Shown here piece after piece: positions 27,831 through 64,000 of a DNA stretch of 64,000 nt. The DNA is from Oryzias latipes. Its lineage: Eukaryota; Chordata; Actinopteri; Beloniformes; Adrianichthyidae. The stretch covers positions 28,391,973 through 28,455,972 of the forward strand of contig NC_019859.2 of NCBI RefSeq assembly GCF_002234675.1, given 5' to 3'. Positions within the stretch are counted from its first letter, which is position 1; each line of letters begins with the position of its first letter. Below the pieces are notes generated by a model. That model saw only the letters and a program-made list of their open reading frames with translations. It was not told the origin of the DNA and ran no database searches. The position numbers and the translations under genes are program-made.

Positions 27831-28304
27831 TGCATGGACTGAGCCCCTCCCCTCCCACTGTTAATTGTAACTTAGACATGTAGGGCCCCTTGCTCGGGGG
27901 GTGCTTGGACATCACTGCCAGCAAGCAGGAGATGTCTTCTAAGTGCCCCACCCACCACCCTTTATTACACACATCCTTTATGCCTCAACTATATACACTC
28001 TACCCCACACACACGCTTATAAACACACATACATTACACAAGGAAAGAGGGACCTCTGATCTTCTGTTCACTACCCCATACCTGGCGGGGGAACCAGACC
28101 CTCTGCAACGGGGGCCTTGTTCCTTAGGTGCTTGCTTCCTGGACAGCCTTCTCTTCATACAGAGAGAGGGATCACTGAGTTCTCCGGCAAGACCACAAAC
28201 CTGGGATCACATCACAACTGAGCCTGGGGGTTTCCGTGTCCCTGTGGTGAGGGTTTTGGTCCTTGCCCTTAAATGCTCTCAAACTGTGGGTGAGCCTGTT
28301 TATT
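27831..28304 (+). repeat. Retroposon family piece, plus orientation
   Basis: It is similar to 47237-47600: CACACA-rich stretch, AAGGAAAGAGGGACCT, CCCCATACCTGG, CACAACTGAGCC and TTTCCGTGTCCCTG. It contains a 156-aa open frame (27890-28360) without domain content that also exists in copy B, which I regard as chance. Confidence 0.55.
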
Positions 28305-29015
28305 TATTTATTCATTTATTTGTTTATTTTTTAAACTTGTCCGGTCCGACAGCTAAATAAACAAAATAAACAGATAAGAACTGAAGGTCTCTTGTGTTGG
28401 ATATTTTACTTTTATGACATGGGGTTATAAATCTTCTGACACACTAGATGTATATTTGAATAAACTCAGTTTGTAATCTAGACTAAACTTTTATTGAGGG
28501 TGGTGTGTGTGTGTGTGTGGGGGGGGGGGTGGGGGGTGGGGGTGGGGGGTTAAAATCATAAAACATCACAAAGCAACAAGTTGATGGATGTTTATAATCA
28601 CTACTGTCAGGTTTAGATGTGTAACAAATCTAAAAGGGGCAGGGCCTGTCCACACACCCTCAGGTGTTACAAACATACCTGTTGGCTCCAATAAAGTACA
28701 CATGTACACAATACAATACTGTTCATGCACGCATACTTCTGCATTCAGACTAACACAAGTGAAACATTTCATTCAGTCATGTCTACTATTTGTTTTACGG
28801 TGAGATAGCACCTGTGCTCAAGTGAGTGATTTTGTTCTTTTAAGGTGGATGATGAAATCTAAAAAACAAGAGGGAGAGTGCCCAGTCATCCCAATACCTA
28901 GGAAAGGGGCCCCCATTGATGTTGTGTTTTTCATGTCCCCCAGCCAGGACTTGAACCGGGGGCCTTCTTGCTGTGAGCCAGGGAAGAGCGCTAACCACTA
29001 CGCCACTGTGCAGCC
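28305..29015 (-). mobile_element. Retroposon with tRNA-like head and (AAATA)n tail
   Basis: Reading the minus strand, the 5' end has an A-box-like GTGGCGTAGTGGTTAGCGC (29006-28988) and a B-box GGTTCAAGTCC (28957-28947). The body matches 48060-48690, and the 3' end is GACAAGTTTAAAAAATAAAC followed by AAATA-type repeats. This looks like a tRNA-derived SINE head fused to the 3' end of an L1-like element. The same copy is at 51112-51798 in the duplicate. Confidence 0.6.
28505..28550. repeat. (GT)n and poly(G) tract
   Basis: A GT dinucleotide run passes into a G-rich run. The copy B counterpart (51299-51332) has more GT and less G, so the tract has changed since duplication. Confidence 0.9.
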
Positions 29016-29019
29016 AATG

Positions 29020-29240
29020 GTGAAGCAGTGATTGAAAAATTAAGCCAGACTCATAGATCGGCACATACCTGTTTCCAGAGAGCCTGGACAGGTGTGCAAA
29101 ACCACAGCGCATGCATGTAACTTTCAGGTTACTGTCACAGTGCTCACAAATGTCTGAGTTACTGAGACCCATCTTGAACATCCTCTGTCCAGTGTAGTAA
29201 ATTCTGTGAAGAGTTTTGAAATGGATTAAAGTTTGGACTT
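29020..29240 (-). pseudogene. L1 ORF2 C-terminal relic
   Basis: The minus strand reads MFKMGLSNSDICEHC and, after a frame change, a HALWFC-like block, the Cys-rich C-terminus of vertebrate L1 ORF2. The same relic is at 51805-52025. Confidence 0.6.
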
Positions 29241-31847
29241 TTTGTCAATTTAAAGGTGTTTAGAAAAAGTTCTGCCTAGAAGCTTTCATCTGTGCTGCTG
29301 CTGAATTTTGCGTCCTATTTTGTTATAAGAATTAAAAATGTTACTATCTAGGTTGCATAAGATTTATTGAATGAAATGTTAATCGAAGAGGAACCCAGTT
29401 CTGGTTGCTTTAGGTCATTGTCTTTGTATTTAAACTTTTCAGTAATTCTAGATTTAGTGGCTGGTAATCCAAAAAGTTATTTATTCCATGTTTTTGTTGT
29501 AGCTACTGGGGTGTTATTTATCTTATATCAATAAGTAAGTGCTCTAGTGTATAACTCCCCCTACTGGCCAAGATGAGAAGTGCAACAGTTTTTGTTTATA
29601 AGGATATCTGGGTTGTTCCAGATGGGTGTCATTTTCCTCCTATCTGTCTGCTCAGCTGTTTGACAGGACAAGTAAAAAAAAAAAAAGAAAAACATTCAGA
29701 CCTGTGACCAAAATCCCCCTGTTCCTCCTGTTCTTTCTGCCACTCATTTTCCTTCGGCGCCCCTGCCAAGGCTTTTCCGGTCTTGTCTATCTCTCTGAGC
29801 AACTGTACCTATGTTCAGCCTTTCTGCATTTTTCAAAGTCGATCTGATAAGCTGGTCTTTGAATTTGATTGACAAAATTGTTTTCCATACCAAGGAACGA
29901 GAAAGCACTCTTCCTAACTAGAGGCCCCTTTTGCAGCTGGATCCACTAATGATCCATAGGGCAAATGGAAGTTGATGTGCCTATCACAACTGTCTTTGAA
30001 AGATGTAGAACAGGGGTCAGCAACGTTTATGACAAGAAGTTCCGGTTTGAAATTTTCTCCATTACAACTGCGCCATCACTAACTGTAATGCGAACTCTAA
30101 AACTAAGAAACACAAAAACATTTCCAATATGAAATTTTACATAATTCTTTAACAGCAGGTCAAAAAGATTTTTAAGACATATTTTGGCATTAACGACACA
30201 AAAGTCTTTCATAACATTATTACTCAATGTAATAAACAAAGGTGTAATTAGTACTGTCACTGTGTGTTTGTTTGAAACAAAAAGTACTGTATTTGTGGTA
30301 TGTCGCACCTGCAGCTATAGGATTGGATATGTAAAAAACGTAAAACCACAAACATTATGGCTTATTCATCTTTGTTACATTGTGAGGCAGGGCCTGAGTA
30401 ACTTAATGTAAGTTCATTTTGTGATGGTGCTTTTATTGCGTTAATATTTCTACTGTTTCATTGGATGACAAATTATATAAACTTACATTTTCCACAATTG
30501 GACAGCGTCATTATTCATACCCCCAGTAAGTGGATTGGTGATCAGCTGTAGTTTTATTTTAAAACTTGTTCACATTTCGGCAGAACAGAAAGAAAGTCTG
30601 GGTATACGGGCTGGTTTAGACTTCACAGTGAGTTGTAATGACTCGCCTTGCAGTGGTCACACGGCCATCGGAGCAGAATCGTCCCAGTCCTTTCAGAATG
30701 AGACACCTGCTGGTGATGTCACCCACAACTGGAATTTTACGCCCATAGTGCAATCACATGCAAATCGAGTCATTCAACTTGAGCCGCAGAGCTCAACTTT
30801 GGAGCTCTGCAGCTAAGAATGAACCATCTAGAAGGACAATTAGCACTTCAAAGTCTGAGACTGGATGTCAGGCAGAAAAATGAGGACACCTCCTTCAGGT
30901 TGGGTTACAATGGGAGATTCCTCCCTCTGCTGGGGGTGGTTAGATGGGGGCTACAGTACATTTTCACAGTGATGAAGGAGTAATAGATCCGCTGAATGGT
31001 TGGTGTGTCTACTATGATCTGGACTCTGAAGATTGCTCAATTGGAGGCATTGCTGGTGCGTTTGCTGCTGAGTAAACGCTAATGAAAAACCAAGCGATGA
31101 AGTCAAAGATGGGAAGAATAAAAAAAAACATGTTATAAACTAATATCCCTCCTTCTCTTATCATCTGCTTTCTATCTGTTGCTATCTATTCATACACTGC
31201 AAAGCCACAGAAGGAATACTCACATTCCAGTCGTGTCTGAACAACCAGGAAAGCCTGGTCTGCAAACATGCCACACCTTTTGTCGTCAGCAGAAACCGCA
31301 AAACCAGAATGACCAGATGACTGCAGACAATGAATTTAAATGCTAAATTTAGATTTATTTATTTATATGCGAGAGACAAAAAATGAAGTGATAAAAGTGA
31401 CAAAACATGATTCTGAAAAACATGTTCTGATCAGAACAAAGACTATTGGTAGGTATCTTTTTTGACATAATTAATATAAAGCAACAGTCAGGTATGCAAC
31501 AAGACAAAAATGTATTTCTGCTAGTTTTTTTATGAATCTTGTTATTAAAAGCTTTACCCTAAGTAAAGTAAAAGTAACTTTAAAATCGAATAAAAGTAAT
31601 TAAATTGTTTAAAGGCCTAAAGTAGGTAGACTTTAATACTAAACCTTTAAAAATAGCAATTTCCTAATTACTTTTTGTACAATGACAAAATAGAAAAGCT
31701 TGCCTCGTAATTTTTTAAGTGCACATATTTGATCACAATTTAAACAAAATGGGCAAGTTGAACAATTTATGGTAATAAATAAAGTCATCTTTTTGGTTTT
31801 CAAAAAGGCAGTAAACAGCAGCATGAAGACAAAACTGATCATTGCTG
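29241..31847. other. Region downstream of the LITAF-like gene A
   Basis: Most of this is shared with copy B but unassigned. A short retroposon 3' end with poly(A) sits at about 29627-29690 (CAGCTGTTTGACAGGACAAG then A-run). A hAT-like start CAGGGGTCAGCAAC is at 30011, without a visible partner end. The stretch 30733-31152 is absent from copy B and has no clear target duplication. The 93-aa frame at 30535-30816 shares its start with copy B but ends differently, so it is unlikely to be coding. Confidence 0.4.
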
Positions 31848-32268: not shown

Positions 32269-35200
32269 TCACATGCGTCTGTGCACATGCAGCACGTTGT
32301 TGCAGGAGGGACAGGAGTGCTGCACGTCTTTGCAGGAATTAACGCAGAAGGGGATGAGGCAGCAGGGCCAGCATCTGTGTGAAGAAAAGAGGGGTAAATA
32401 TTTCCACTGCATTACTAATAAATACTTTAATAATAGATGCAGAAATTACAATGTGCTGTTTCTAATTCAGTGTCACATTTTATTCTGCACTTTTGAAGAT
32501 GCAACAAGGTAAACTGACAGCACCATCACTGTCATGACAGTCCAAATAGTAAAGAAAATACCATACATTCAGAATGAAAAAGTGCTTAGTATCCCGCCCC
32601 CACCCCACCCTGGTCTCCCCAACGATCCAGGCGAGGTTCATCTTAAATGCGTCCATCGTTGCATTTTCCACAGGTATTTTCAGTGTGTCTAAGACTAAAT
32701 CTTGTCGCTCTCACAGGTTTAATGTTAGAGCTCCGTTAGCTGTCACGCATGTAGGTGTGGGACATTTATTCTCCTCAGCTAACCATTTTCTGGGGGAGCG
32801 GTGTGCTGCCGTAACAGCCGTGCATGAGACCTGTTTGATCGAGGTTGATATGCCGCCGCGCGCTTAACCCTAACCATAACCCTCCTCCAGGTCTGTGCAG
32901 CCCAGAGAAAAGTTCAGCCTTGACTGCATCTATTCAGAAAATTACGAGCGAATAAATACGTTCTAAAAAGGAAAGTGAGGAACTCCTTAATGTGGTCCGT
33001 GGAGGGGGCTGTCAGATGTCCTGCGTTTAATGTTTTCCTGCTTTGAAGCCCGGTCATTGTCACGCCCCCAAGACTCATATACCCCACTGTGATCGGTTGC
33101 TTTGTCCGCTCCGCGCACGACAATGTAAAAGTGTCATTCATGCAAACTGGCGGGACGCATTAACATTAAACTTTCATACTAAGGCGGGGGCCGCAAAATA
33201 TCATCTTGGGGGCCGCAAATAGCCTGTGGGTTTGAGACCCCTGCTTTAGACTCTGGCACTGGTACACTAGCCGCAGGTCGTAAAGAATGAATCAATAGTT
33301 CTCTTACTCATAGCTCAGATGCACATATCAGGTTGTGATGATATTTGTCTCCGTTTCCTTCCCACAGATGTTAACGCACGCTCGATCATCTCTAGGCCCC
33401 TCCCCCTCCACGCATTTTAGCCACTTACAGTGGCCATTCCCTATTCTTCTCACACACACTTGACCGCCTCACAGACAGGCATCACTCAATGCAGGGGTGT
33501 CAAACTCATTTTCACTGAGGGCCACATCAGCATAGTTGCTGACCTCAAAGGGCCAGATATAACTTATAAATGTAACTAAATGTAATGAGAAAAAAAATGT
33601 AACTACTCCTTAATTTTAAATAACTCATTATTTATTTATTATAACTTTTTCAAGTGAAAATTACAGTTGCATAAAAAATGTTTGTGTCATGGTTTGAGTT
33701 TGTTTTGTCTTGGTTTTTGTTTTAGTTCTTGTTCTGTCTTGTTTGGTTTTGTTTCCTGTTTTATTTTGAAAGGGTTCCTGTCTTGTCATGTCTTGAGTTG
33801 TACTTCCTTTGGTCCCCATCTGCCCTGATCGTGTTCACCTATGTCTTGTTTGCCCTGTCTGTATATAAGTCTTGTCTCTGCCTTCCTTTTGTGCTAGTCC
33901 ATTAACTTCTGGTCATGGTGTTAACGTCCTTTTGTCTTAGCGTCCTTGTTCCACGTCACAGTAAGTTTTGGTTTTGTTTTGTCATCCTGCTCGGCAGCGC
34001 TTTTTGTTAAATAAACCCTCTAGTCCTGAACCCGTTGGCCTCCCGTCTCTGCGTCTGGGTCCTACAGGCTCTCGAGCCTCCCTCACCGTGACAGTTTGCT
34101 TGTTACTCTATCATAAATTCTTTTACATTACTGTCAGGTTAGGTTATTTTGGCAGTGTTTAAGTCCCAGTGTTGCCCAATCTGATATTTCAAGTCAGATT
34201 ACCCCTAGATATGAATAAGGACACCAATTCTTTTTATTTTAGTTTAAGAAAATAAAAAAATTTTATGCTCTCGCGGGCCTCATAAAATGAAATGGAGGGC
34301 CACATTTGGCCCCCGGGCCTTGAGTTTGACACACGTGACTCAACGAAACGCGAGTGTGAGCTCGCATCTCGAGTGTGTGCGAGCGCGTGTGTGTGCGCTC
34401 GCATCTCATTGATTATTTAATTTTTCATTTCATTGATCATTGACGTGCCCCTTCCACGTTTAATGTATAAAAAAAACGTAGGGTGGGGGAGGCAAATTTA
34501 CAGGTAGCACATGTGCGACTAGATGTAAAATTCAGGCGCACACTCTCAAATTTTGGTCGCAGTCTGGAGCCCTGTGTTTTATTTATTTATTCATTACATA
34601 AATTCGCGTTTCAACCCACAAAAACAGGATTTCCAAATATTAGAATTATGTAAAGAAATCCCCCTTTACTTCTCTGTTTTTGCAAAAAAGTAAAGATGGA
34701 TATTATAATCACATCAAATAATTTCAAAATGACATGTCCATCTTCAATACTTAAAGAGTATGAACAGGGACCAGGTCCTGCTGTAAGATGAAATCTGCAT
34801 CTCCATCCAGATCCTTAACAGAAGGGATTATGAAGTACCCTAGAACATTTTGGTTGACTGTTGCAGTGATATTGGATTGAAGCCACACACCAGTGTGGCT
34901 CCACTGGTGTGTGAATGTGCGTGAATGTCCCGGTGATGGTCAGAGGGGCCGTAGGCGTGTACTGGCAGCAAAGCCTCTGTCAGTCTTCCCCAGGGCAGCT
35001 ACAGTCACCAAGTATGTGGAGTGTCTTGAACAGCGCAGATAAATCCAATCCATTATTATTATTATTATAAGAAGGCAGAGTTTACCAACACCAGCGCTAA
35101 ACATGGCAGCCCAAATCCTGACTGACTGTGGAAATTCCCAATGGATCTTAAACAGCTTGGGTTCTGCTCCTCACCAGTCTTCCTCCAAACCCTTGGACCT

Positions 35201-36789
35201 TGATTCCCAAATGACAGGCACACTTTCATCAGAAAATAGGAGTCCAGTCCAGGGCTCCTTCTTCTTGGCCCAGTTGAGGTGATGCCTCCTTTGGTCCAGG
35301 CTCAGAAGTGACTTGACCGGAGGAACCTGATAGCCCATCTATTGTTCTTCCACCTTGTTCCACTCTTTTTGGAAGTCTGTAGGTTCTTGAATCTTATCTT
35401 TTTGATAATCTACTGAAGCGCATGGTCACTTTGATTCCTGCCAAATTTTGCCCCTCCATTAGTTTCCGTTGATCTGCTTGGACATACTGTAGAGTCCTGT
35501 AAACAGCCAGCCTCCTTAGCTAGGAATCTTGATAGTCTTGTGGCTTGTTGTCAATTCTGAAGTCTTCCCTGTAGGTTTTTTTCAATCGTCCTGTCCAGCA
35601 GCTGAAGGCCTCTTGTGTTGGACAGATTTTACTGTTACACTACAAAGTTATGAATCTTCTGACACACAAGGTGTGTATTTGTATAAACCCCTCTTGTATT
35701 TGAGGCTAACTTTTATTTATATTAATGTTGTTTGTATACATTTTCTTGTTGGACCAAACGGAAGGGCCTGTACACAGACACATTCAAATAATACAAACAT
35801 ACGTGTTGGCTCCAAACTTCTTCACACAACACACCAACAGGTCATCTACACAATACAACGACAGCTCACACACACATGCATACAAACAAAAACGATTTTC
35901 TCCTTAAGATTGTATTTGTATATTTCTCATGAGATGGTTTCTATCATCTTATGTAAAGTATAAAAAGAAAACAATTCAGTCTGGAGGCTGACACCAGGTA
36001 TTGAAAGAATGTATCTAATTTCAACCTGTGTTGATTATTTCCATGTTGTTTAAGTCAAGAAGTGAAAGATAAAAACACTTGTCAGAATTTAGATTAAGTC
36101 TTTTGTTTTTTAACTTTTAGCTTCCGTGCTGGAGGGATGCAGATATTCTGCCATTTTAGGGTTTTACTTACCCGATGATTCCCAGCACACCAAAGATGAG
36201 CCAGGTTTGCATCCCCACTTTGTGCTCGGTCTTCGTCACTACAGTGTTCTGGCAATGGGGGCACCGCATCTGTCCAGGGCAATCAGTGGGATGCGGCTGA
36301 ACCACCACCATATGGTTCACTAAGGGCACAGGACAGACATTTGTGACATCCACCCTCAACCAAAATCAAATGGTCTTTTGAAAGGAGCAGTAGCTCACCG
36401 GTTTGTACCACCTGATGCTGCGGCTGCTGTTGAGGCTGCTGCTGAAACTGAGGCTGCTGCTGAAACTGCGGCTGAAACTGAGGCTGCTGCTGAAGTTGAG
36501 GATTCATCTGCATCTGCGGCTGCTGGTATGGTGCAGTTTGAACTGATGAAAGAGAGGTAACCTCAGAGATGGAGCGGTGAAGGTGCAGGTGAGGGTGCTC
36601 AAATTACATCCCTGTACTCTTACCTTGGGGAGGAGCTGTCTGGTATGATGCCGATTGGGGTGGTGGGTACATCTGTTGTGAAACTGGATAAGAGGGCGGT
36701 TGTGGTTGGCTGGTTGACGTGCTCTGCTCCAAAGGTGGGCCAGGGTAGGGTGGCGCTGGGATATCAGTAGGGGGCCCCTGCTTTTCCAT
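32269..36789 (-). CDS. LITAF-domain protein, copy A, 187 aa
   Basis: LITAF/CDIP1-family proteins are zinc-binding monotopic proteins of the late endosome/lysosome membrane. Coding exons are 36789-36624, 36542-36399, 36319-36172 and 32374-32269, all with GT-AG junctions that keep one frame. The N-terminus is Pro-rich with a PPSY motif (possible WW-domain ligand). Residues about 56-103 are a Gln/Pro tract. The LITAF domain has CxxC at 123-126 (RCPHCQ), the membrane-inserting [20 protein letters not shown] segment near 143-162, and the second CxxC at 174-177 (SCPSCN). The tail [10 protein letters not shown] looks closer to CDIP1 than to LITAF, so I give no symbol. The ATG follows an acceptor (TTCACCAG) by 11 nt, so the first exon is non-coding. 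The 3.8-kb last intron holds several transposons. Confidence 0.9.
32401..33243. mobile_element. hAT relic specific to copy A
   Basis: The right end GTTTGAGACCCCTG (33230-33243) is the complement of a hAT-type start CAGGGGTCTCAAAC, preceded by GGGGCCGCAAA motifs typical of such ends. No matching left end was found. Copy B lacks this stretch: similarity stops at about 32400. Confidence 0.4.
33492..34337. mobile_element. hAT MITE (second copy) interrupted by a solo LTR
   Basis: Same family as 3872-4293: starts CAGGGGTGTCAAACTC, ends GAGTTTGACACACGTG. Flanking 8-mers ACTCAATG (33484-33491) and ACTCAACG (34338-34345) agree at 7 of 8. Removing the LTR at 33685-34093 and one GTTTG leaves an interior colinear with the uninterrupted copy. 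Confidence 0.85.
33685..34093 (+). mobile_element. Solo LTR of a gypsy-like retrotransposon
   Basis: The 409-bp unit begins TGTCATGG and ends CCGTGACA (TG...CA rule), with a perfect 5-bp target duplication GTTTG (33680-33684 and 34094-34098). It contains TATATAAG (TATA-like, about 33863) and AATAAA (about 34010). No internal retrotransposon sequence is left, so it arose by LTR-LTR recombination. The plus orientation is inferred from TATA and AATAAA. Confidence 0.9.
34870..35075 (+). repeat. LINE 3' tail ending in (ATT)n
   Basis: It contains CACTGGTGTGTGAATGTG, GGGGCCGTAGGCGTGTACTG and AATCCAATCCATTATTATTA, a widespread fish LINE/SINE tail. The copy B counterpart has an extra inverted arm (57135-57212). 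Confidence 0.6.
35085..35560 (-). pseudogene. Tc1/mariner-like transposase relic
   Basis: Minus-strand translation gives [14 protein letters not shown], a KLFKIHWEF block and [12 protein letters not shown], resembling the first and second DDE blocks of Tc1-like transposases (FSDES and MIWGAMS). A stop lies between. Also present in copy B (57345-57790). Confidence 0.45.
35570..35995 (-). repeat. 5'-truncated retroposon, minus orientation
   Basis: Its 3' end, CAACACAAGAGGCCTTCAGC followed by TGGACAGGAC, and the body TTGGAGCCAACACGTATG match the retroposon family at 28305-29015 and 48060-48690. Confidence 0.6.
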
Positions 36790-36839: not shown

Positions 36840-37424
36840 ACAGCTTTGAAGGTTGAAAAAAAATAGGTAAGACAGGACAAAAAAATCATAGATCGGGGTA
36901 AGAAGCAAGCATCAGACCTGGTTGTATTTTATAAACCCAAGAATTTAGAACTCCCTTTTGCGTGGGCAGGAAAGCAGGTTTGGTTGCATTTCTTTTTCAA
37001 GAGGAGACAAAACAGGGCAGAGGATGCTTTGGTTTCTCAGCAAACACTTTTATACCCCATGAATGGTGTTTTACAAATAAAGCACATGCCTCAATCTCAT
37101 CTACTATAATCCAGCAAAGGAGATGATTCCATAATCTGCTCATAGCTCCACCTCTTTATGGTTTTAGTTAAAAACGTGAAGATTGGTTTCTGTGGTTTTG
37201 GCTTTGAGGATTACCTTCTGAACTGAACAAACATTTCTAGCATCATGATGCGACTCCACACCTTAGCTAACTCAGTGGAAAATGCTTTGAAAAAAGTCAA
37301 ACAACCTACTTGAAGAACCTGCTTCAATTACAAAAATTAAATAGAAAAATGCTGACAATTCATCACAAGAACTGATACGTTTTTCTTGAAACCAAACCTT
37401 TAAAACAGAAAGAAATGTGATTAC
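36840..37424 (-). other. Intron between the 5' UTR exon and coding exon 1 of LITAF-like gene A
   Basis: Unique sequence shared with copy B apart from the LINE inserted there at 59325. At CCCCATGAATGG (about 37060) copy A keeps the uninterrupted target. Confidence 0.5.
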
Positions 37425-40712: not shown

Positions 40713-40860
40713 CACACACACACACACACACACACACATACTTGGAGGGACATTCAGGCTTATAGCTTATAGCTGTGTCGGTGGGTGTGTGGTTGTGTGT
40801 GGGGTGGTGTCTGTGTGTGTGGGTGTGTGTGTGTGTGTGTGGAAGGAAGGGGGGGGGGGG
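40713..40860. repeat. (CA)n / (TG)n microsatellites and poly(G)
   Basis: A CA run is followed, 20 bp on, by a TG-rich run and an 11-12 G stretch. Copy B (62213-62243) has only the CA run, so the TG/poly(G) part and the sequence to about 40985 differ between copies. Confidence 0.9.
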
Positions 40861-50638: not shown

Positions 50639-51111
50639 TGCATGGACTGAACCCTTCCCCTCCCGCTGTTAATTGTAACTTAGACATGTAGGGCCCCTTG
50701 CTCGGGGGGTGCTTGGACATCACTGCCAGCAAGCAGGAGATGTCTTCTAAGTGCCCCACCCACCACCCTTTATTACACACATCCTTTATGCCTCAACTAT
50801 ATACACTCTACCCCACACACACGCTTATAAACACACATACATTACACAAGGAAAGAGGGACCTCTGATCTTCTGTTCACTACCCCATACCTGGCGGGGGA
50901 ACCAGACCCTCTGCAACGGGGGCCTTGTTCCTTAGGTGCTTGCTTCCTGGACAGCCTTCTCTTCATGCAGAGAGAGGGATCACTGAGTTCTCCGGCAAGA
51001 CCACAAACCTGGGATCACATCACAACTGAGCCTGGGGGTTTCCGTGTCCCTGTGGTGGGGGTTTTGGTCCTTGCCCTTAAATGCTCTCAAACTGTGGGTG
51101 AGCCTGTTTAT
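50639..51111 (+). repeat. Retroposon family piece in copy B
   Basis: Counterpart of 27831-28304 with only a few substitutions. Confidence 0.55.
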
Positions 51112-51798
51112 TTATTTATTCATTTATTTATTTTTTAAACTTGCACGGTCCGACAGCTAAATAAACAGATAAGAACTGAAGGTCTCTTGTGTTGGATGTT
51201 TTACTTTTATGACATGGGGTTATAAATCTTCTGACACACTAGATGTATATTTGAATAAACTCAGTTAGTAATCTAGACTAAACTTTTATTGAGGGTGGTT
51301 TGTGTGTGTGTGTGTGTGTGTGGGGGGGGGGGTTAAAATCATAAAACATCACAAAGCAACAAGTTGATGGATGTTTATAATCACTACTGTCAGGTTTAGA
51401 TGTGTAACAAATCTAAAAGGGGCAGGGCCTGTCCACACACCCTCAGGTGTTACAAACATACCTGTTGGCTCCAATAAAGTACACATGTACACAATACAAT
51501 ACTGTTCATGCACGCATACTTCTGCATTCAGACTAACACAAGTGAAACATTTCATTCAGTCATGTCTACTATTTGTTTTACGGTGAGATAGCACCTGTGC
51601 TCAAGTGAGTGTTTTTGTTCTTTTAAGGTGGATGATGAAATCTAAAAAACAAGAGGGAGAGTGCCCAGTCATCCCAACACCTAGGAAAGGGGCCCCCATT
51701 GATGTTGTGTTTTTCATGTCCCCCAGCCAGGACTTGAACCGGGGGCCTTCTTGCTGTGAGCCAGGGAAGAGCGCTACCCACTACGCCAACGTGCAGCC
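51112..51798 (-). mobile_element. tRNA-headed retroposon in copy B
   Basis: Counterpart of 28305-29015. The B-box GGTTCAAGTCC is at 51740-51730 and the tail is AAATAAATA-like. The (GT)n tract inside has changed length. Confidence 0.6.
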
Positions 51799-51804
51799 AA
51801 CAGT

Positions 51805-52025
51805 GAAGCAGTTATTGAAAAATTAAGCCAGACTGATAGATCTGCACATACCTGTTTCCAGAGAGCCTGGACAGGTGTGCATAACCACAGCGCATGCATG
51901 TAACTTTCAGGTTACTGTCACAGTGCTCACAAATGTCTGAGTTACTGAGACCCATCTTGAACATCCTCTGTCCAGTGTAGTAAATTCTGTGAAGAGTTTT
52001 GAAATGGATTAAAGTTTGGACTTTT
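51805..52025 (-). pseudogene. L1 ORF2 C-terminal relic, copy B
   Basis: Counterpart of 29020-29240 with the same frame breaks. Confidence 0.55.
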
Positions 52026-54219
52026 TGTCAATTTAAAGTTGTTTAGAAAAAGTTCTGCCTAGAAGCTTTCATCTGTGCTGCTGCTGAAGTTTGCCTCCCA
52101 TTTTGTTATAAGAATTAAAAATGTTACTATCTAGGTTGCATAAGATTTATTAAATGAAATGTTAATCAAAGAGGAACCCAGTTCTGGTTGCTTTAGGTCA
52201 TTGTCTTTGTATTTAAACTTTTCAGTAATTCTAGATTTAGTGGCTGGTAATCCAAGAAGTTATTTATTCCATGTTTTTGTTGTAGCTACTGGGGTGTTAT
52301 TTATCTTATATCAATAATTAAGTTACTTTAGTATGTAACTCCCCCTACTGGCCAAGATGAGAATTGCAACAGTTTTTGTTTATAAGGATATCTGGGTTGT
52401 TCCAGATGGGTGTCATTTTCCTCCTATCTGTCTGCTCAGCTGTTTGACAGGACAAGTAAAAAAAAAAAAAAAAAAAGAAAAACATTCAGACTTGTGACCA
52501 AAATCCCCCTGTTCCTCATGTTCTTTCTGCTACTCATCTTCCTTCGGCGCCCCTGCCAAGGCTTTTCCGTCTTGTCTATCTCTCTGAGCAACTGTACCTA
52601 TGTTCAGCCTTTCTGCATTTTTCAAAGTCGATCTGATAAGCTGGTCTTTGAATTTGATTGACAAAATTGTTTTCCATACCAAGGAACGAGAAAGCAGACT
52701 CTTCCTAACTAGAGGCCCCTTTTGCAGCTGGATACACTAATGATCCATAGGGCAAATGGAAGTTGATGTGTCTATCACAACTGTCTTTGAAAGATGTAGA
52801 ACAGGGATCAGCAACGTTTGTGACAAGAAGTTCCTGGTTTGAAATTTTCTCCATAACAACTGCGCCATCACTAACTGTAATGCGAACTCTAAAACTAAGA
52901 AACACAAAAACATTTCCGATATTAAATTTTACTTAATTCTTTAACAGCAGGTCAAAAAGATTTTTAAGACATATTTTGGCATTTACGACACAAAAGTCTT
53001 TCATAACATTATCGCTCAAAGAAAATAAACAAAGGTTGAATTAGTACTGTCACTGTGTGTTTGTTTGAAACAAAAAGTACTGTATTTGTGGTATGTCGCA
53101 CCTGCAGCTATAGGATTGGATATGTAAAAAACGTAAAACCACAAACATGATGGCTTATTCATCTTTGCTACATTGTGAGGCAGGGCCTGAGTAACTTAAT
53201 GTAAGTTCATTTTGTGATGGTGCTTTTATTGCGTTAATATTTCTACTGTTTCATTGGATGACAAATTATATAAACTTACATTTTCCACAATTGGACAGCA
53301 ACATTATTCATACCCCCAGTAATTGGATTGGTGATCAGCTGTAGTTTTATTTTAAAACTTGTTTACATTTCGGCAGAACAGACAGAATGTCTGGGTATAA
53401 GGGCTGGTTTAGACTTCACAGTGAGTTGTAATGACTCGCCTTGCAGTGGTCACACGGCCATCGGAGCAGAATCGTCCCAGTCCTTTCAGAATGAGACACC
53501 TGCTGGTGATGTCACCCACAACTTCTCTTATCATCTGCTTTCTATCTGTTGCTATCTATTCATACACCGCAAAGCCACAGAAGGAATACTCACATTCCAG
53601 TCGTGTTTGAACAACCAGGAAAGCCTGGTCTGCAAACATGCCAAACCTTTTGTCGTAAGCAGAAACCGCAAAACCAGAATGTCCAGATGACTGCAGACAA
53701 TGAATTCAGATGCTATATTTAGATTTATTTTTTTATATCCGAGAGACAAAAAACGAAGTGATGAAAGTGACAAAAACTGATTCTGAAAAACACGTTCTGA
53801 TCAGAACAAAGACTATTGGTAGGTTAATTTTTTTTGATGTAATTAATATGAAGCAACAGTCAGGTATGCAACAAGACAAAAATGTATTTCTGCTAGTTTT
53901 TTTAATGAATCTTATTATTAAAAGCTTTACCCTAGTAAGGTAAATGTAACTTTAAAATCGAATAAAAGTAATTAAATTGTTTAAAGGCCTAAAGTAGGTA
54001 GACTTTAATACTAAACCTTTAAAAATAGCAATTTTCTAATTACTTTTTGTACAATGACAAATTAGAAAAGCTTGCCTCGTAATTTTTTAAGTGCACATAT
54101 TTGATCACAATTTAAACAAAATGGGCAAGTTGAACAATTTATGGTAATAAATAAAGTCATCTTTTTGGTTTTCAAAAAGGCAGTAAACAGCAGCATGAAG
54201 ACAAAACTGATCATTGCTG
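52026..54219. other. Region downstream of LITAF-like gene B
   Basis: Nearly identical to copy A 29241-31847 apart from the missing 420 bp at about 53523 and small indels (A-run lengths near 52460). No coding region recognised. Confidence 0.4.
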
Positions 54220-54225
54220 TTTATT
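54220..54225 (-). terminator. Candidate poly(A) signal of LITAF-like gene B
   Basis: AATAAA on the minus strand, 416 bp beyond the stop codon, as in copy A. Confidence 0.5.
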
Positions 54226-54640
54226 CAATGATCACCCCAAAATGAACCTACGTGGTTTACCTTTGGCTTTAGATCAGATGCCCCTCTTGACCTAACCCTG
54301 ACCTGGACGTTCCAAATGTTCTTCTGTTCAAAGACTAATCAGACCTGATCACACATGTGCTGCCATGAAACAAAAAACTAGATTAGTTTTGACCAACTTA
54401 TACCTTTTGGGTTTATGTGAGAGGAATTCAAATAAGTTTGACTCAAAATTCAACTGCAGCTGATGTTTACTGTACAGGAGGAGAGCAATCATTACATGAA
54501 AAGAGGCTGTTTTGATTATTTTCTCAAATTTTTACATTTCAGGTTCACAACTTGATTGCACATCAGACAAAGAGAAGAATAGGTTAATGTACAAAATAGA
54601 GAGAAGCTGGTTGGATTTAGACTGCAAGGCATTCAGGTCA

Positions 54641-57600
54641 TCACATGCGTTTGTGCACATGCAGCACGTTGTTGCAGGAGGGACAGGAGTGCTGCACGTC
54701 TTTGCAGGAATTAACGCAGAAGGGGATGAGGCAGCAGGGCCAGCATCTGTGTGAAGAAAAGAGGGGTAAATATGTGCATATGTTAATGTGGAAACTCGGC
54801 AGCAGGTTAGATATATCTTAAAGTAAGATATAGTGGTGGTTTAACCAAATTTTATTTAAAGTCAGATAAAAAAGAGCTAGTTCAAGCATTTCCAAACATA
54901 TAATGTCAGACGAAAATGTAGGTATAGAAAAATGTTAGACAAAATGTCATTTTCGCTTTTTAAGATAGATAATATTTTGGCATTAAAACGGCTTTCCCTA
55001 TTACATAACAGTAACACATGTGGCTTTGTGTAATTGTGGAAGAATTTAGGTTTTTTTTTCGAAATCTATTCAAAGTAAGGTTAAAGGTTTGCTGCATTAA
55101 AACCACTAAGACCAAGAAAAGAGACGGAAAACATGTTTAGGACAGAAGAAAGAGGCTACAAAAACAATGGATGATTAATGATTTTGTATAACTTTGTCAA
55201 ATGGACATGGCTTGTTTGAGGCTTAACAGTATTATTGCATTAATAAATATAAACAGAAAGACAATTAAGCACAAAAGAGACCATTGCCAAAAAAAAATCA
55301 AATATCATGGAAAAGTATATTCATTTCCACGATATTCCATTAAAAAAAATGTTCATAGAATATAGATTCAGGGCCCACTACTTAGTTGTTTAGTTTTTAT
55401 TTATTACATTAATTCGCGTTTCAACCCACAAAAACAGGATTTCCAAATATTAGAATTATGTAGAGAAATCCCCCTTTACTTCTCTGTTTTTGAAAAAAAA
55501 AAAAAAAAGACAGACATAATCACATCAAATAATTGAAAATTAGTTTTTTTCAAAATGACATGTCCATCTTCAATACTTCAATGGTATGAACAGGGACCAG
55601 GGGCCTCATCTATAAACGTTGCGTACGCACAAAAGAAGGCGTACGCCATTCTCTACGCAATAGTTGAGATTTATAAAAAGCAAACTTGACGGGAAAATGT
55701 GCGGTCCTCCACGCAAGCTCTGACCCAGGCGTAGGCACAAAAACGGGTGAAATTAGAAACGGCGACACCGTCGGCAGATGGAAGAAACACGTGAAAGTGA
55801 CAGTGTGTGCCAAATCGTGCTGGCATGTGCTGTGCTACACAATGTGGCACAGCTTAAAAACGTGCCTCTAGCCCCTGGCGCCGATTGCATGCATTTGAGC
55901 CAAATGCTGCTGCTGTGCGCCAGCGTTTGGAAGTGATGCGTCGCTTGTAAAGAACAACAAAAGGTGTGAAAATATTATTTATTTAAGAATTCCCTCATCG
56001 TGCAGTTTATTTCAGTCAGTCTTGATTTCACCCAACTCCTTGGCCACCTCTGTGATTGAACTACTGACTTCCCTCTGCATGTCAAGGACTGCATCGGTGA
56101 GGACACGTCCACTGCTGGAGGGTTGAGAGCCGCGTGCCGTGGAGACGCTGGGTCCAGGCGGCTGCTCAGCTGCAGCATCGTAATCATTGGCCCCGCTGGA
56201 ACACCCAGCAACTAAAATAAAATTGTTCTATATTAATAATCTGTAATTGTGTAGCCTGCATACATGTGAATTGACTGCATTCATTTTAATTATTTCTCTT
56301 ACCTGTGTCACCCGGTGCGTCTGGCGCGTCGGCGTCCCCCTCCGTCTCAGTCACCACAGTCACCGAGTGACGGAGGGGGAGGAGGACGCCGATGAGGGGG
56401 ACTTAATAGGGATTCCCCAATAATAGCCGCCAGTCTCTCATCAAGAGGGGTCAGCTCCGGTGTCTCTTCCCCCCCCCCCCCGTGGCAGACACACTCTGCC
56501 GATGCAGCGCTAGACGTTTTTTTGCCTCGACTTTGATGTCCGATCATTTCTTTCATTTCTTTTTTATTTCGGCCACGGTCCGAGGTTGTGAGGCTACAGC
56601 ATTTATGGCGTCTGCCACCGTTTGCCGCTCACGTGCTTTTTTGGCATTAGTAATGTCCACACTGTGCCCTCCAAACAACACTTTTCTCCTCTTTTCCACC
56701 TCGCCAACGATAACTTCTACTTCACATTGAGTGAAGTTATGTTTTTTTGATTTCCTCTCTGTGTTTGCCAAGATTTAGCAAGCCATGAATATTAATTTGT
56801 GGGAGTTTCACGGACTATTTATGGGCAACTATGGGTGTGTCATGTAGCCGCAAAAGCTGCGCTGCATTTAGAATCGGTTGTGATTTATAAAGGGAAAGAT
56901 GCGTAGGATATGCGTGCGCACGGTTTTATAAATCCGAATATTTCTGTGCGTACGCACGTCCTATGTTTCATCCGTACGCCACTTCTGACGCAAATCCTAC
57001 GCAAAGTTTTATAAATGAGGCCCCAGGTCCTGCTGGAAGATGAAATCTGCATCTCCATCCAGATCCTTAACAGAAGGGATTATGAAGTACCCTAGAACAT
57101 TTTGGTTGACTGTTGCAGTGATTTTGGATTGAAGCATCACGGGACATTCACGTACATTCACACACCAGTGGAGCCACACTGGTGTGTGAATGTACGTGAA
57201 TGTCCCGTGATGGTCAGAGGGGCCGTAGGCGTGTACTGGCAGCCACGCCTCTGTCAGTCTTCCCCAGGGCAGCTACTGTCACCAAGTATGAATGTGGAGT
57301 GTCTTGAAAAGCTAAATCCAATCCATTATTATTATTATTATAAGAAAGCAGAGTTTACCAACACCAGCGCTAAACATGGCAGCCCAAATCCTGACTGACT
57401 GTGGAAATTCCCAATGGATCTTAAACAGCTTGGGTTCTGCTCCTCACCAGTCTTCCTCCAAACCCTTGGACCTTGATTCCCAAATGACAGGCATACTTTC
57501 ATCAGAAAATAGGAGTCCAGTCCAGGGCTCCTTCTTCTTGGCCCAGTTGAGGTGATTCCTCCTTTGGTCCAGGCTCAGAAGTGACTTGACCGGAGGAACC

Positions 57601-59048
57601 TGACAGTTGTAGCCCATCTACTGAATCCCTCTGCTGTGGTTTTTGCAGCTGTTCTTCCACCTCGTTCAACTCTTTCTGGAAGTCTGCAGTTTCTTGTATC
57701 TTGGCCTTTTGATAATCTACTGAAGTGCATAGTCATCTCTTCTCTTGCCAAATTTTGCCCCTCCATTAGTTTCCATTTATCTGCTTGGACATACTGTAGA
57801 GTCCTGTAAACAGCCAGCCTGCTTAGTCTTCCCTGTAGGTTTTTTTCAATCCTGTCCAGCAGCTGAAGGCCTCTTGTGTTGGACAGATTTTACTGTTACA
57901 CTACAAAGTTATGAATCTTCTGACACACAAGGTGTGTATTTGTATAAACCCCTCTTGTATTTGAGGCTAACTTTTATTTATATTAATGTTGTTTGTATAC
58001 ATTTTTTTGTTGGACCAAACGGAAGGGCCTGTACACAGACACATTAAAACAATACAAACATACGTGTTGGCTCCAAACTTCTTCAGACAACACACCAACA
58101 TGTCAACATGTACACAATACAACGACAGCTCACACACACATACTTATGCATACAAACAAAAACGATTTTCTCCTTAACATTGTATTTGTATATTTATCAT
58201 GAGATGGTTTCTATCATCTTATGTAAAGTATAAAAACAATTCAGTTTGGAGGCTGACACCAGGTATTGAAAGAATGTATCTAATTTCAACCTGTGTTGAT
58301 TATTTCCATGTTGTTTGTTTAAGTCAAGAAGTGAAAGATAAAAACACTTGTCAGAATTTAGATTAAGTCTTTTGTTGTTTAACTTTTAGCTTCCATGCTG
58401 GAGGGATGCAGATATTCTGCCATTTTAGGGTTTTACTTACCCGATGATTCCCAGCACACCAAAGATGAGCCAGGTTTGCATCCCCACTTTGTGCTCGGTC
58501 TTCGTCACTACAGTGTTCTGGCAGTGGGGGCACAGCATCTGTCCAGGGCAATCAGTGGGATGCGGCTGAACCACCACCATCCGGTTCCCTGAAGGCACAG
58601 GACAGACATTTGTGACATCCACCCTCAACCAAAATCGAATGGTCTTTCGAAAGGAGCAGTAGCTCACCGGTTTGTACCACTTGAGGCTGCGGCTGCTGTT
58701 GAGGCTGCTGCTGAAACTGAGGCTGCTGCTGAAACTGAGGCTGTGCCTGAAGCTGAGGCTGCGGCTGCTGCTGAAACTGAGGCTGTGGCTGAAGCTGAGC
58801 CTGCTGCTGAAGTTGAGGCTTCATCTGCATCTGCGGGTCAATCTGCGGCTGCTGGTATTGTGCAGTTTGAACTGTTGAAAGAGAGGTAACCTCAGAGATG
58901 GAGCGTGCAGGTGCTCAGATGACATCTCTGTACTATTACCTTGGGGAGGAGCTGTCTGGTATGATGCCGATTGGGATGGTGGGTACATCTGTTGTGAAAC
59001 TGGATAAGAGGGCGGTTGTGGTTGGCTGGTTGATGTGCTCTGCTCCAT
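54641..59048 (-). CDS. LITAF-domain protein, copy B, 188 aa
   Basis: Paralogue of the gene at 32269-36789 with the same four coding exons: 59048-58940, 58871-58668, 58588-58441 and 54746-54641, all GT-AG and in frame. Compared with copy A, exon 1 has lost 57 nt (19 residues, the [14 protein letters not shown] part) but keeps PPSY. Exon 2 is 60 nt longer, enlarging the Gln/Pro tract by 20 residues. The LITAF domain is nearly unchanged: [23 protein letters not shown] and SCPSCN with all four Cys of the two CxxC pairs, and the end HVHKRM. No stop or frameshift is present. The last intron contains the Harbinger element, a Tc1 relic and retroposon pieces. Expected to act, like the family, on the cytosolic face of late endosomes. 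Confidence 0.88.
54773..55386. other. Intron sequence without counterpart in copy A
   Basis: AT-rich, no coding frame or repeat terminus recognised. Similarity to copy A stops at about 54772 and resumes at about 55390 (ATTCGCGTTTCAACCCAC). Confidence 0.4.
55601..57023. mobile_element. Complete Harbinger-type element with empty site in copy A
   Basis: The 1,423-bp element has ends GGGCCTCAT...ATGAGGCCC and a CAG duplication at 55598-55600 and 57024-57026. Copy A has the single CAG at 34772-34774 within GGACCAGGTCC, a palindromic target of the CWG type known for vertebrate Harbinger elements. TACGCAC-rich subterminal repeats are present at both sides. It encodes a broken Myb-like ORF1 but no transposase. 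Confidence 0.9.
55975..56771 (-). pseudogene. Harbinger ORF1, Myb/SANT-like DNA-binding protein (broken)
   Basis: Minus strand: from ATG 56771 the frame has [28 protein letters not shown] and RTVAEIKKK, the NAIF1/MSANTD-like Myb domain that in Harbinger transposons helps target the transposase to the nucleus and DNA. A short duplication around AAATGAAAGAAATG (about 56540-56555) shifts the frame and adds a stop. The next frame continues with an Asp/Glu/Pro-rich part (56556-56347), and a third piece (56211-55975) follows after a possible intron. Inactive as it stands. Confidence 0.65.
57135..57212. repeat. Perfect 36-bp inverted repeat, 6-nt loop
   Basis: Arms 57135-57170 and 57177-57212 are exact reverse complements (left arm begins CATCACGGGACATTCACG); the loop is GAGCCA. 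Copy A (34870-34935) has only the inner part of the left arm. Located in a fish LINE tail within the LITAF-like B intron. Confidence 0.95.
57213..57345 (+). repeat. LINE 3' tail ending in (ATT)n, copy B
   Basis: Counterpart of 34930-35075. Confidence 0.55.
57345..57790 (-). pseudogene. Tc1/mariner-like transposase relic, copy B
   Basis: Counterpart of 35085-35560, slightly longer because copy A has lost about 60 bp near 35335. Confidence 0.45.
57840..58265 (-). repeat. 5'-truncated retroposon, copy B
   Basis: Counterpart of 35570-35995. Confidence 0.55.
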
Positions 59049-59324
59049 TTTGTCAAGTTCTGGTGAAAAGGTAAACTCGAAGGATCTTCAGAAAACCTAC
59101 AGCTTTGAAGGTTGAAAGAAAATAGGTAAGACGGGACAAAAAAATCACAGATCAGGGTCAGAAGCAAGCATCAGACCTGGTTGTATTTTATAAACCCAAG
59201 AATTTAGAACTTCCTTTTGCGTGGGCAGGAAAGCAGGTTTGGTTGCATTTTTTTTTCTAAAAGGAGACAAAACAAGGCAGAGGATGCTTTGGTTTCTCAG
59301 CAAACACTCTTATGCCCCATAAAT

Positions 59325-61046
59325 TGCAAAAATTGCAAAAGTTATACCATTGTACAAAACCGGGAACAAGCATCACTTCACAAACTATAGGCCAGTTTCT
59401 ATGTTACCGCAGTTATCAAAGATATTGGAAAAAATGTTCATAACCAGATTAAACTCTTTGATCGAAAAGCACAAGATACTGGACGAAGGACAGTATGGGT
59501 TCAGGTCAAATCGATCAACATCACTGGCCCTGATGAATGTAATAGAAAATATAACAAATGCTATTGATAGTAAAAAACATGTAATCGGGGTATTTATTGA
59601 TTTAAAAAAAGCTTTCGACACAATTAACCACTGTATATTAATTTATAAATTGGAACGGTATGGCATTAGGGGGTTAGTGCTAGACTGGATCAGAAGCTAT
59701 TTGAGCAACAGAAAGCAGTTTGTAAAGGTTGAAGGTGCTTGTTCCCAATGTTTGGACATTGTTTGTGGTGTCCCTCAGGGGTCGGTTCTGGGACCAATAT
59801 TGTTTATTTTATATATAATGATTTATTTCAGGTTTCTAACAAATTACGGCTAGTTCTATTTGCTGATGATACAAATGTGTTTTGTGATGGGGATGATCTG
59901 CAGCAACTCATTGAAATTGTTAAGAAGGAGATGGAAAAACTGAAGCTGTGGTTTGATGTAAATAAGCTTTCACTAAATTTAAGTAAAACAAAAATGATGT
60001 TATTTGGTTACCATAAGGGTAGAAATATTAACATTGACATGCACATAAATGGGGTGAAACTTGAAAGAATTTATGAAATTAAATTTCTTGGGGTCATAAT
60101 TGATGACAAACTTACCTGGAAAGCACATATTAGCTACATACAAGCCAAACTATCCAGAAGTATTTCTGTCTTAAATAAAGCTAAACTGGTTCTGGACCAC
60201 AAATCACTCCACATGTTATACTGTACATTAGTTTTACCATATTTTTCTTATTGTGTAGAAGTTTGGGGGAACAACTATAAAACAACGTTACATTCACTTT
60301 CAATTCTTCAGAAGAGAGCAATACGAATCATACACAAAGTCAGTTACCTTGAGCACACAAATAAATTATTCATAGAATCAAAATTACTCAAATTTTACGA
60401 TCTAGTAGAGTATTGTACCGCTCAAATAATATTCAAGGCCAAAAACAATTTATTACCCACAAATATCCAAAGGTTATTTAATACAAAAGAGGAAAAATAC
60501 AATTTTGGGGAAAAAGATAAATTTGTCATACATAGAGCACGTACAAATAAAAAGAGATTCTGTGTTTCAATTTGTGGAGTGAAATTGTGGAACAGAGCCA
60601 GTAAATGCTTGAAGCAATGTCCAAACATAAAAGAATTTAAATATAGATACAGAAAGATGATCATGGATAAATATGTGCAAATACAAAAAAATACAGAATG
60701 TCAGCATTTATAAATCTGCCTACTTTGACAATACGTTTTGTTATTCATTTGTATGTTGTTTGGAAATGAAAATTACATGTATATATGTACATATACACTT
60801 GGGTAGGGCACTGGACTCTGATGATGGGAAAGTAAGGGCTTAAGGTAAAGGGGGGTGAGAGTTTATAAGATGTTTCTTCTTCTCACTCCCTTTTGGACTG
60901 GTGTTTATATAATTTTGTTTTGTTTTGTTTTATATAATTTACTTGTCTTTTTCTTGTTTTTGCAAGTTTTGTCTCGTTTTTGTCTTATTTTGTTATTTTA
61001 CACTTGTTTCACTAGTCCAAAATAAAAAAAGACTACTACTACTACT
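59325..61046 (+). mobile_element. 5'-truncated jockey/CR1-like LINE in LITAF-like gene B
   Basis: Present only in copy B, inserted in the intron between the 5' UTR exon and coding exon 1; copy A keeps CCCCATGAATGG. AAAT on both sides (59321-59324, 61047-61050) may be a short duplication. RT blocks: NYRPVSMLPQLSKILEK, IDLKKAFDTINH, VPQGSVLGPILF, LFADDTNVF (catalytic FADD intact), KFLGVIIDDKLTWKAHI. One missing nucleotide near 59815 shifts the frame (59350-59853 to 59739-60713). The 3' end is (ACT)n. Confidence 0.82.
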
Positions 61047-61408
61047 AAATGGTGTTTTACAAATAAAGCATGTGCCTCAATCTCATCTGCTATAATCCAG
61101 CAAAGGAGATGATTCCATAATCTGCTCATAGCTCCACCTCTTTATGGTTTTAGTTAAAAGTGAAGATTGGTTTCTGTGGTTTTGGCTTTGAGGATTACCT
61201 TCTGAACTGAACAAACATTTCTAGCATCATGATGCGACTCCAAACCTTTGCTAACTCAGTGGAAAATGCTTTGAAAAAGGTCAAACAACCTACTTGAAGA
61301 CCCTGCTTCAATTACAAAAATTAAATAGAAAAATGCTGACAATTCATCACAAGAACTGATACGTTTTTCTTGAAACCAAACCTTTAAAACAGAAAGAAAT
61401 GTTATTAC

Positions 61409-61610
61409 CTTCAAGAGATCTTGTCCAACTGTGTGAGTCGGACTGGTGTCAATCCAATCAAACATCCACACAAGCTCTGGAGTCGGTGAGGAGGGTGCAG
61501 AGCTACACTGGATGTGCTGGTTTGACGACTTTTATTTCCGGTCTGCAGATGACGTTGCAGATGTCATGATTACAGTACAACTCAACAGCAGTTGTGATGC
61601 AATGTGACGC
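61409..61610 (-). other. Non-coding first exon of LITAF-like gene B
   Basis: Counterpart of 37425-37620 with donor CTTGAAG|GTAATA at 61409/61408. Confidence 0.5.
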
Positions 61611-61625
61611 AACACTTTCTAAAAT

Positions 61626-61632
61626 GCTTTAT
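61626..61632 (-). promoter_or_regulatory. TATA box of LITAF-like gene B
   Basis: TATAAAG in GGGGATTATAAAGC. The upstream sequence continues without the LINE that interrupts copy A. Confidence 0.5.
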
Positions 61633-61899
61633 AATCCCCTTAATGTTGTCTGTAAATTCATATTTTGAAACAATTTTATGATATTTCTTCATTTGGATCT
61701 GAGTTTTCTTTGTAAAGTGAGACATTGACGGAAGTCAGAACTCTGTCTCCAGCTGTCCCAAGAGTTGTAGACACTACATCTCCTTGCAACATCAGCGCAC
61801 ACTTCCTGGATGCCACACACCTGACTTTCATGTACAATCACTTACAGCATCCTTAAACACTGTACTGAGCCTCACTCAGTGTGAAGTATTGTTTGTGCC

Positions 61900-62145
61900 A
61901 CTCTGCCTTCATTACCCAGTGTTATGCCTGATCTGATCTTCTGTTTCCTGACCTTGTTTGCCTCTGACTCTGTTTGCCCGCCCCAAATCTCACCTGGATC
62001 CTGATCCTGTTACTTTTCTTATGCTCTCATGCTCATTATTGACTCCTGCCTGCCTGATCCTGACTTAGCTTTGTGGACTTTGAGCTGAGTAAATAAACCT
62101 GCTGCATCTAGTACCAGCAGTCTGCCTGCTTTTATCACAGACATG
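61900..62145 (+). repeat. LTR-like or retroelement 3' fragment, copy B
   Basis: Counterpart of 40420-40625. Confidence 0.35.
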
Positions 62146-62212
62146 GATTTATGTAAATTAGACTCTTGTTTGTTTGATAATTCAAAACAATATCAAACAA
62201 CTTATTTTACCG

Positions 62213-62243
62213 CACCACACACACACACACACACACACACACA
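62213..62243. repeat. (CA)n microsatellite
   Basis: About fifteen CA units, counterpart of the run at 40713. Confidence 0.9.
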
Positions 62244-62308
62244 AATACACACATACATTCTCAATGAATGTGGAATTTTTTAAATAGCTGTACTGTATAG
62301 AACAGCGG

Positions 62309-62982
62309 TCAGCAACGTTTATGACATGAAGTGGCAATTCGAAATTTTCTACCTAACAACTGTGCCATCACCAACTATAATGTGAATTCTAACACACAGA
62401 AAAACAAAAACATTTCCAAAAATCTGAAATTTTATTTAATTCACAACAGCAGGCTTTATATTCTTAGATTAACTAAGAAAAGTTCTGTCATAACAATATT
62501 GCACAAGGAAAATATGCCAAAGTTAAAATTGTAGTGCAACTGTGGGTTGTGCCCATTGTTGATCCGATCGGGTGCATGTAAACAGTTTATTACAATTGTG
62601 AGTCACTACTGCTCTGGCCTTTACGTCATAGCTAGACGGTGTGGCGCTCCAGAGAAGGCTTTGGAGCGTGAACAGGGCCAACCGGCTGCTCCATGTGGGC
62701 AAACCATGTCTCTGGGCAGAGCAGCCGGACTTGTGGCTTTGTGTTTGCGGGCAGGGGAGGGTGCTTTGTTATGGTGTGCAGTCTGGAGGAGGCTTCAGAC
62801 CGCAGTTGGTCCAGCTGCACTGTGTGAGCGAGTTGCCGGACTTAGGAGAGCCGTGTCTCCCAGGTAGAACTGTGTCCCCAAGCAGAGGAGCGGCTTTGGG
62901 ACGGTGTGTGAGCTGGCAAAAATGAATGGAGAAATGCCGCTCCACACAGTCCTGTGAAACCATGTAAACAGTCATGTGAATA
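62309..62982 (+). repeat. Unassigned repeat with hAT-like start, copy B
   Basis: Counterpart of 41030-41706; the 106-aa and 94-aa frames are kept with a few changes. Confidence 0.35.
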
Positions 62983-63355
62983 TGTCTTTTGATTCATGTC
63001 TAGACAAAATAAAGGCTGAAGTTATTCTCACATTTCTACGTGCAGCCAAGATGCGCTTTATGGCATTGCCCGCATGGATTTAGGTGCATCCGCAATAAAG
63101 TCTTTCTTGGCGCATGTACACAGTTCAATTCGAATCAGATCTTTGATCCGATCAAAGATAATTTGCACACGTAACTGCAGCCTGTGTTTATATAGGTTTT
63201 CACTAAGCTCTCACCTTTTGCTCTGTTTTCTGCTGCAAATGGTAGAATTTTAAAACTGACACTAAACGGCCTTACTGAAAAACAGTTGCGCTTTGACTGA
63301 ATTTTTGCTTTGAGGAAAACAGCTTTGTAAGTTTGCCATTTTACTCTAATGCTGT
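62983..63355. other. Unassigned sequence, copy B
   Basis: Counterpart of 43663-44038. It ends with the single AATGCTGT that is the empty site of the TIR element in copy A. Confidence 0.4.
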
Positions 63356-63876
63356 TAAAGAAAACTGGTCTGAAGCAAGCTACATCCCAGCTGTAGACCA
63401 TGTGCAAGCATGACTATACTCAGATGGAAGTCACTTCCAACATGAAAAGGAAACTACCACCAACTACCACAAAATCTACTGGACCACCTTTGATGGTGAA
63501 GGTGAGACAGGAGTCTAAATCCAGGTCAGAAGAGGTTACTTTGGCTGAAACTGAAAGTCAGCTGCGTGAAAACTCTATAATGGTGGCAAACATTTCCTGG
63601 TTGGTTAAGATAATGGGGCTGAGAAAAAGACTGCAACAACGGAAAGAGAGATACCACAGATAGTGAAGGAGAACCAAGAACTGAGGGAAAAAGCTGCCTA
63701 ACTGGAAAGACATAAATGAAGCTGGAACTTGAAAATCCCATGGTCTGAAAGAAAAAGATGACAAGAACAGCCGAGAAGGTCATCTGGAAGTTCGTTATGA
63801 GGTGCCATAGAGATGCTTTCTGGAAAATCACTGAGAACTGTCAGACCTGCAAAGGACTTCAGTAAAGCAGACCGGG
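63356..63876 (+). pseudogene. L1 ORF1 relic, copy B
   Basis: Counterpart of 45424-45943 with the same frame breaks. Confidence 0.5.
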
Positions 63877-64000
63877 CTCTGGGGGCCTCGCGGCGGTCCT
63901 GCTGGCCCTGGCCTGGGTGGTGGGCTGGGTCGCCCGGGGGGCGGTTATTCCCTGCCTGCTGCCGTGTGGGGGATTCCAGCTGCCGCTGCTGCTGCGGCAT
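63877..64000 (+). repeat. GC-rich retroposon body joined to the L1 relic
   Basis: From CTCTGGGGGCCTCGC onward it matches 47938-48060 of copy A, so 45944-47937 of copy A is missing here. Continues beyond the window. Confidence 0.7.

Follow-up and report, generated by a model that had tools for sequence, protein, structure and literature searches.

A head-to-tail duplicated segment of the medaka genome with two intact LITAF-domain frames

Our analysis supports a direct tandem duplication, each copy with an intact LITAF-domain reading frame, in a 64,000-nucleotide stretch of Oryzias latipes contig NC_019859.2, positions 28391973-28455972 (hereafter, the window). The two units, A and B, lie head to tail, and the second continues past the window. 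The right flank is the DNA of NC_019859.2 beyond the window end, and positions past 64000 are given in extended coordinates. The duplication has the following parts:

Unit A: 27831-50638, 22,808 bp, 13 alignment blocks against unit B, the last at 50456-50638
Unit B: 50639-66071 (extended coordinates; in-window part 50639-64000), 15,433 bp, from the alignment and the right flank
Junction of A and B, head to tail: 50638/50639, blunt, with no microhomology seen

A preliminary description of this DNA had proposed two co-linear copies in the same orientation and a comparison of the window with itself as the check. That comparison bears the proposal out: same-strand blocks join 27831 onward to 50639 onward, and the block 27831-30730 pairs with 50639-53523 at an offset of 22,808. 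The last base of A (50638) directly precedes the first base of B (50639), the same terminal sequence closes A at 50638 and B at 66071 (extended coordinates), and the sequence after the end of B differs from the unit start. Since B ends in the sequence that ends A, and A abuts B, the order is left flank, A, B, right flank. The units thus share one orientation, abut each other, and are bordered by different sequence, as expected of a direct tandem duplication. The window end cuts unit B, which runs 2,071 bp further. As insertions and deletions accumulate along the units, the offset between the copies declines unevenly, from 22,808 bp at the unit start to 15,432 bp where the units end.

These differences between the copies include at least five private insertions in A, at least three in B, and one stretch read as lost from B:

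A-only LINE with reverse transcriptase frames: 37701-40178, plus strand, 4-bp target repeat ATAT
A-only unclassified insertion: 41707-43662, 6-bp target repeat ATATGT
A-only insertion with inverted ends, which we take to be hAT-like: 44039-45415, 8-bp target repeat AATGCTGT
A-only short insertion: 49021-49268, 3-bp target repeat GTA
A-only stretch read as an insertion: 49568-50088, no clear target repeat, a short repeat (49705-49918) inside
B-only insertion resembling a DNA transposon: 55602-57022, minus strand, similar inverted ends, Myb/SANT-like domain, 5-bp repeat CCAGG
B-only LINE with reverse transcriptase: 59325-61047, plus strand, antisense to the gene, 3-bp repeat AAT
B-only insertion: 65630-65887 (extended coordinates), outside the window
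Stretch kept in A and read as deleted in B: 45944-47935, 1,992 bp

Target-site repeats of 3-8 bp accompany all private insertions except the one at 49568, those of 3 bp being weak evidence. The A-only insertion at 49021-49268 has the sequence AATGGTAAAT near its edge, in common with the B-only one at 65630-65887 (extended coordinates). We read the 1,992 bp as a deletion in B, and rejected an insertion in A at 45944, because an element alignment (47235-48705 versus 79840-81300) runs through the edge. The copies also show a 421-bp difference at 30731. Elsewhere in the window, 26323-26529 matches 55594-55800, one end of the B-only insertion with the Myb domain, at 94%, and is probably another copy of that transposon. 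A short interspersed repeat, 82-87% alike among its copies, occurs at 10910-11124, 24651-24863, and 49704-49918, with further copies past the window end at 81831 and 92746.

The private insertions change the estimate of what was copied. The preliminary figure of a unit of about 23 kb holds for the present length of A (22,808 bp) and not for the copied stretch itself. Subtracting the five A-only insertions (6,580 bp) leaves ~16.2 kb of unit A; subtracting the three B-only insertions (3,402 bp) from unit B and restoring the lost 1,992 bp gives ~14.0 kb. This puts the copied stretch at about 14-16 kb. The order of events changes as well. The duplication had been called recent relative to the transposons that distinguish the copies, and the relation is the reverse: insertions present in a single copy, most of them with target-site repeats, postdate the duplication, so that the event is older than the insertions, unless the units were already different haplotypes when joined.

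Over the 13 blocks, A and B differ at 330 of 11,235 aligned sites, or 2.94% (95% interval 2.63-3.25%; K2P 0.030). This count leaves out the A-only and B-only segments, a non-aligning stretch (A 32402-34577 versus B 54774-55388), and a short repeat-rich stretch (A 40739-40979 versus B 62242-62255). The divergence is mildly uneven along the unit (chi-square 44.1, 21 df, p 0.002), and the longest identical run, of 301 sites, was reached in 19 of 500 shuffles; some gene conversion, or a mixed origin of the units, is therefore possible.

A yardstick for this divergence comes from the inbred medaka strains Hd-rR and HNI, for which a SNP rate of 2.455% and a split ~18 My ago are reported (PMC5705604). 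The divergence between the units is 1.20 times that rate. Given equal rates, and units that do not stem from different haplotypes, a rough age of ~20 My would follow, and we infer that the duplication is as old as the Hd-rR/HNI split or slightly older. Measured against the earlier rate of ~3.42% (PMC4653950), which PMC5705604 revised to 2.455%, it would look younger than the split. Since the divergence between A and B slightly exceeds that between the strains, HNI should carry both copies.

The same figures bear on whether the second copy exists at all. Two alleles of one locus set in series by the assembler would also yield similar adjacent copies; these are 97.1% alike, and a difference of ~3% falls within the range of divergence among medaka subpopulations (2.455%, PMC5705604). 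The genomes of inbred medaka strains were assembled from SMRT reads to about 734, 678, and 744 Mb (Ichikawa et al. 2017, PMC5705604), with contigs anchored to 24 chromosomes and neighbors separated by 1-kb gaps; the Hd-rR assembly is given there as about 733.5 Mb with 491 gaps. No such gap marks a seam between A and B, as 103.8 kb of sequence contains no N, although a gapless false join would fit that too. Three further observations oppose the allelic reading. First, the unit end and the unit start have no sequence in common by which they could have been joined. Second, at least eight insertions are private to one copy. Third, the genome fits the inbred strain Hd-rR, and if it is that strain (PMC5705604), a difference of 2.94% between alleles is unexpected. 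Six DM-domain matches, three on C9, two on C4, and one on C18, also agree with medaka; none is on C1, the expected place of medaka DMY. DMY is reported on a single contig (PMC5705604). We therefore rejected alleles placed in series, which we regard as hardly credible; on the sequence in hand, an artefact of assembly is unlikely.

We consider it very probable that a single segmental event in a medaka ancestor duplicated part of chromosome 1 in head-to-tail order. The copied 14-16 kb would have given rise to two copies of one LITAF-family gene, joined probably by non-homologous end joining or by template switching at a replication fork. Each copy would then have gathered point changes and transposon insertions separately, and B would have lost its 2 kb. 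When 500-801 bp of sequence at each unit edge were compared, no match on the same strand had an E below 0.05. The left flank gave only short matches with the unit end and with the region where B ends (best E 0.058). The unit start and the right flank share a few short inverted matches off the edges, the best of 19 bp (E 0.002), which sits ~475 bp inside the unit start edge and ~100 bp outside the right edge. Recombination between edge repeats (NAHR) was rejected, no homologous repeat having been found at both edges. The blunt junction and the lack of a repeat common to the edges favor, and thus suggest, non-homologous joining at the junction; a microhomology of a base or two could have been present and since lost.

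A link between the breakpoint and a transposon is possible, given that the left edge of B lies 3 bp (11 bp by the A alignment) from the start of homology to a repeat at 79632-81307 (extended coordinates). The copy of this repeat within the unit (27831-28901) has parts in both orientations, and the flank beyond the left edge is unlike the copy at 79632 (110 of 200 shuffles score equally high).

The tandem might also have been built by unequal exchange between haplotypes that had already diverged, in which case the divergence would give the age of the haplotypes, and the duplication may be young. Divergence by itself is compatible with either reading, and under the exchange some of the private insertions could be older than the duplication. 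Such an exchange requires haplotypes as divergent as two subpopulations (PMC5705604), and the junction is blunt and without shared repeats. We judge it improbable and retain a single ancestral event.

Each unit carries one complete LITAF-domain gene, as initially described. The reading frames, 187 aa long in A and 188 aa in B, are open, and both genes have GT/AG introns and equal exon phases (1, 1, 2):

LITAF-domain gene, copy A: 32269-36789, minus strand, ATG to stop, 187 aa
Coding exons of copy A: 36789-36624, 36542-36399, 36319-36172, 32374-32269, minus strand, 166, 144, 148, and 106 bp, stop included
LITAF-domain gene, copy B: 54641-59048, minus strand, ATG to stop, 188 aa
Coding exons of copy B: 59048-58940, 58871-58668, 58588-58441, 54746-54641, minus strand, 109, 204, 148, and 106 bp, stop included

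Both copies belong to the LITAF-domain family (PF10601), scoring 88.3 bits (A) and 87.3 bits (B) against a curated cut-off of 23.8. The sequence PPSY lies within the proline-rich N-terminus of both, PPxY being a motif of the LITAF family. Both also contain CPHC and CPSC with a hydrophobic stretch (judged by eye) between them; a hydrophobic helix with a conserved pair of cysteines on either side is described for the family (PMC5142333). From LITAF family membership only, we infer that both proteins would be zinc-ribbon membrane adaptors of endosomes, like LITAF. Copy A had no sequence match in the PDB at E 0.1.

The two proteins differ at two amino acids across the 81 codons from MVVVQPH onward. 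Upstream, 57 bp (19 N-terminal codons) following the ATG in A are absent from B, and the Gln/Pro repeat in the second coding exon is longer in B than in A. The dS is 0.044 and the dN 0.022 (dN/dS 0.49), from ~13 changes in 168 codons with gaps excluded, which are too few to speak of selection.

A search of the genome (734,051,031 bp, 25 contigs) with a 1,250-bp 3' segment gave three hits: A itself, B (97%), and an 80% match of 91 bp on C8. The LITAF relative on C8 (L007 7795-8107) carries a domain divided between two exons at the corresponding position, with 34% and 71% identity. A tblastn search of the 103.8 kb with the two domain exons found no LITAF copies beyond A and B, the next best match (82705-82806, extended coordinates) having an E of 0.014. 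A second duplicated gene was rejected for those frames of the unit that were scanned: the ones at 41256-41643 stay open in A and B alike and lack a Pfam match, and 27890-28360 and 47267-48145 likewise had none. Outside the units, the window holds a 371-aa frame of the 7tm_3 family (19793-20908, minus strand), whose best PDB relatives are GPRC5D; a very lysine-rich 431-aa frame without a Pfam match (2508-3803, minus strand); and an inverted repeat (4547-7070) with arms at 4593-5323 and 6061-6791 that are 94.5% alike and made of 233-bp tandem units.

The regulatory sequences are partly shared. The poly(A) signal common to both genes, noted in the preliminary description, is confirmed, with the first AATAAA 416 bp past the stop in each copy (31853 in A, 54225 in B). 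The shared 5' UTR exon and TATA box of the preliminary description are putative. Within 911 bp upstream of its ATG, copy A carries TATAAA three times (36933, 37054, and 37649). Two of the three are intact in B (59192 and 61633), and the third reads CATAAGA (59314) where A has TATAAAA:

Third TATAAA site: copy A, 37041-37058, minus strand, GGGGTATAAAAGTGTTTG; B counterpart, 59318-59305, GGGGCATAAGAGTG

The site itself is GGGGTATAAAAG in A versus GGGGCATAAGAG in B, where the edge of the LINE lies 11 bp upstream of it. A scan upstream of copy B found eight TATAAA, six of them inside the LINE insertion. By sequence, copy B is not fully equivalent to A, with a changed TATAAA beside a LINE and 19 N-terminal codons absent, and it may be drifting in regulation and in its N-terminus.

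Such a drift could be read in two ways. Copy B may be heading towards a pseudogene, its frame still open and its promoter damaged, which would be compatible with the single duplication event favored above. The replacement of TATAAAA by CATAAGA next to the LINE edge and the absence of 19 codons relative to A point that way; the frame, the splice sites, and both cysteine pairs are kept, as are the two other TATAAA sites, leaving this course possible and somewhat doubtful. Alternatively, the changed core promoter, the antisense LINE, and the shortened N-terminus could have given B a different expression or sorting, which we think rather unlikely. If true, the altered expression or sorting would represent an early post-duplication divergence that can be compared among medaka strains. 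The pair suits such comparisons: its junction is known to the base and its age lies near the split of the medaka subpopulations, so that the fates of the duplicates are comparable across inbred strains.

Head-to-tail copying is common among gene duplications and does not amount to a novel type of system. The LITAF pair, a small gene in two tandem copies with clean limits, is otherwise ordinary. Among the titles and abstract openings listed for LITAF, medaka, and teleost tandem duplication, we found no published account of it. The medaka cone opsins are reported to include neighboring gene copies that arose by tandem duplication (PMC6389941), as here; they belong to another gene family, whereas each of the two units here has a single recognised gene. 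The LITAF/CDIP1 family (PF10601) shares with the medaka proteins the two CxxC pairs on either side of a hydrophobic stretch and the proline-rich N-terminus with PPSY, and the medaka pair differs in the Gln/Pro-repeat segment of its second coding exon.
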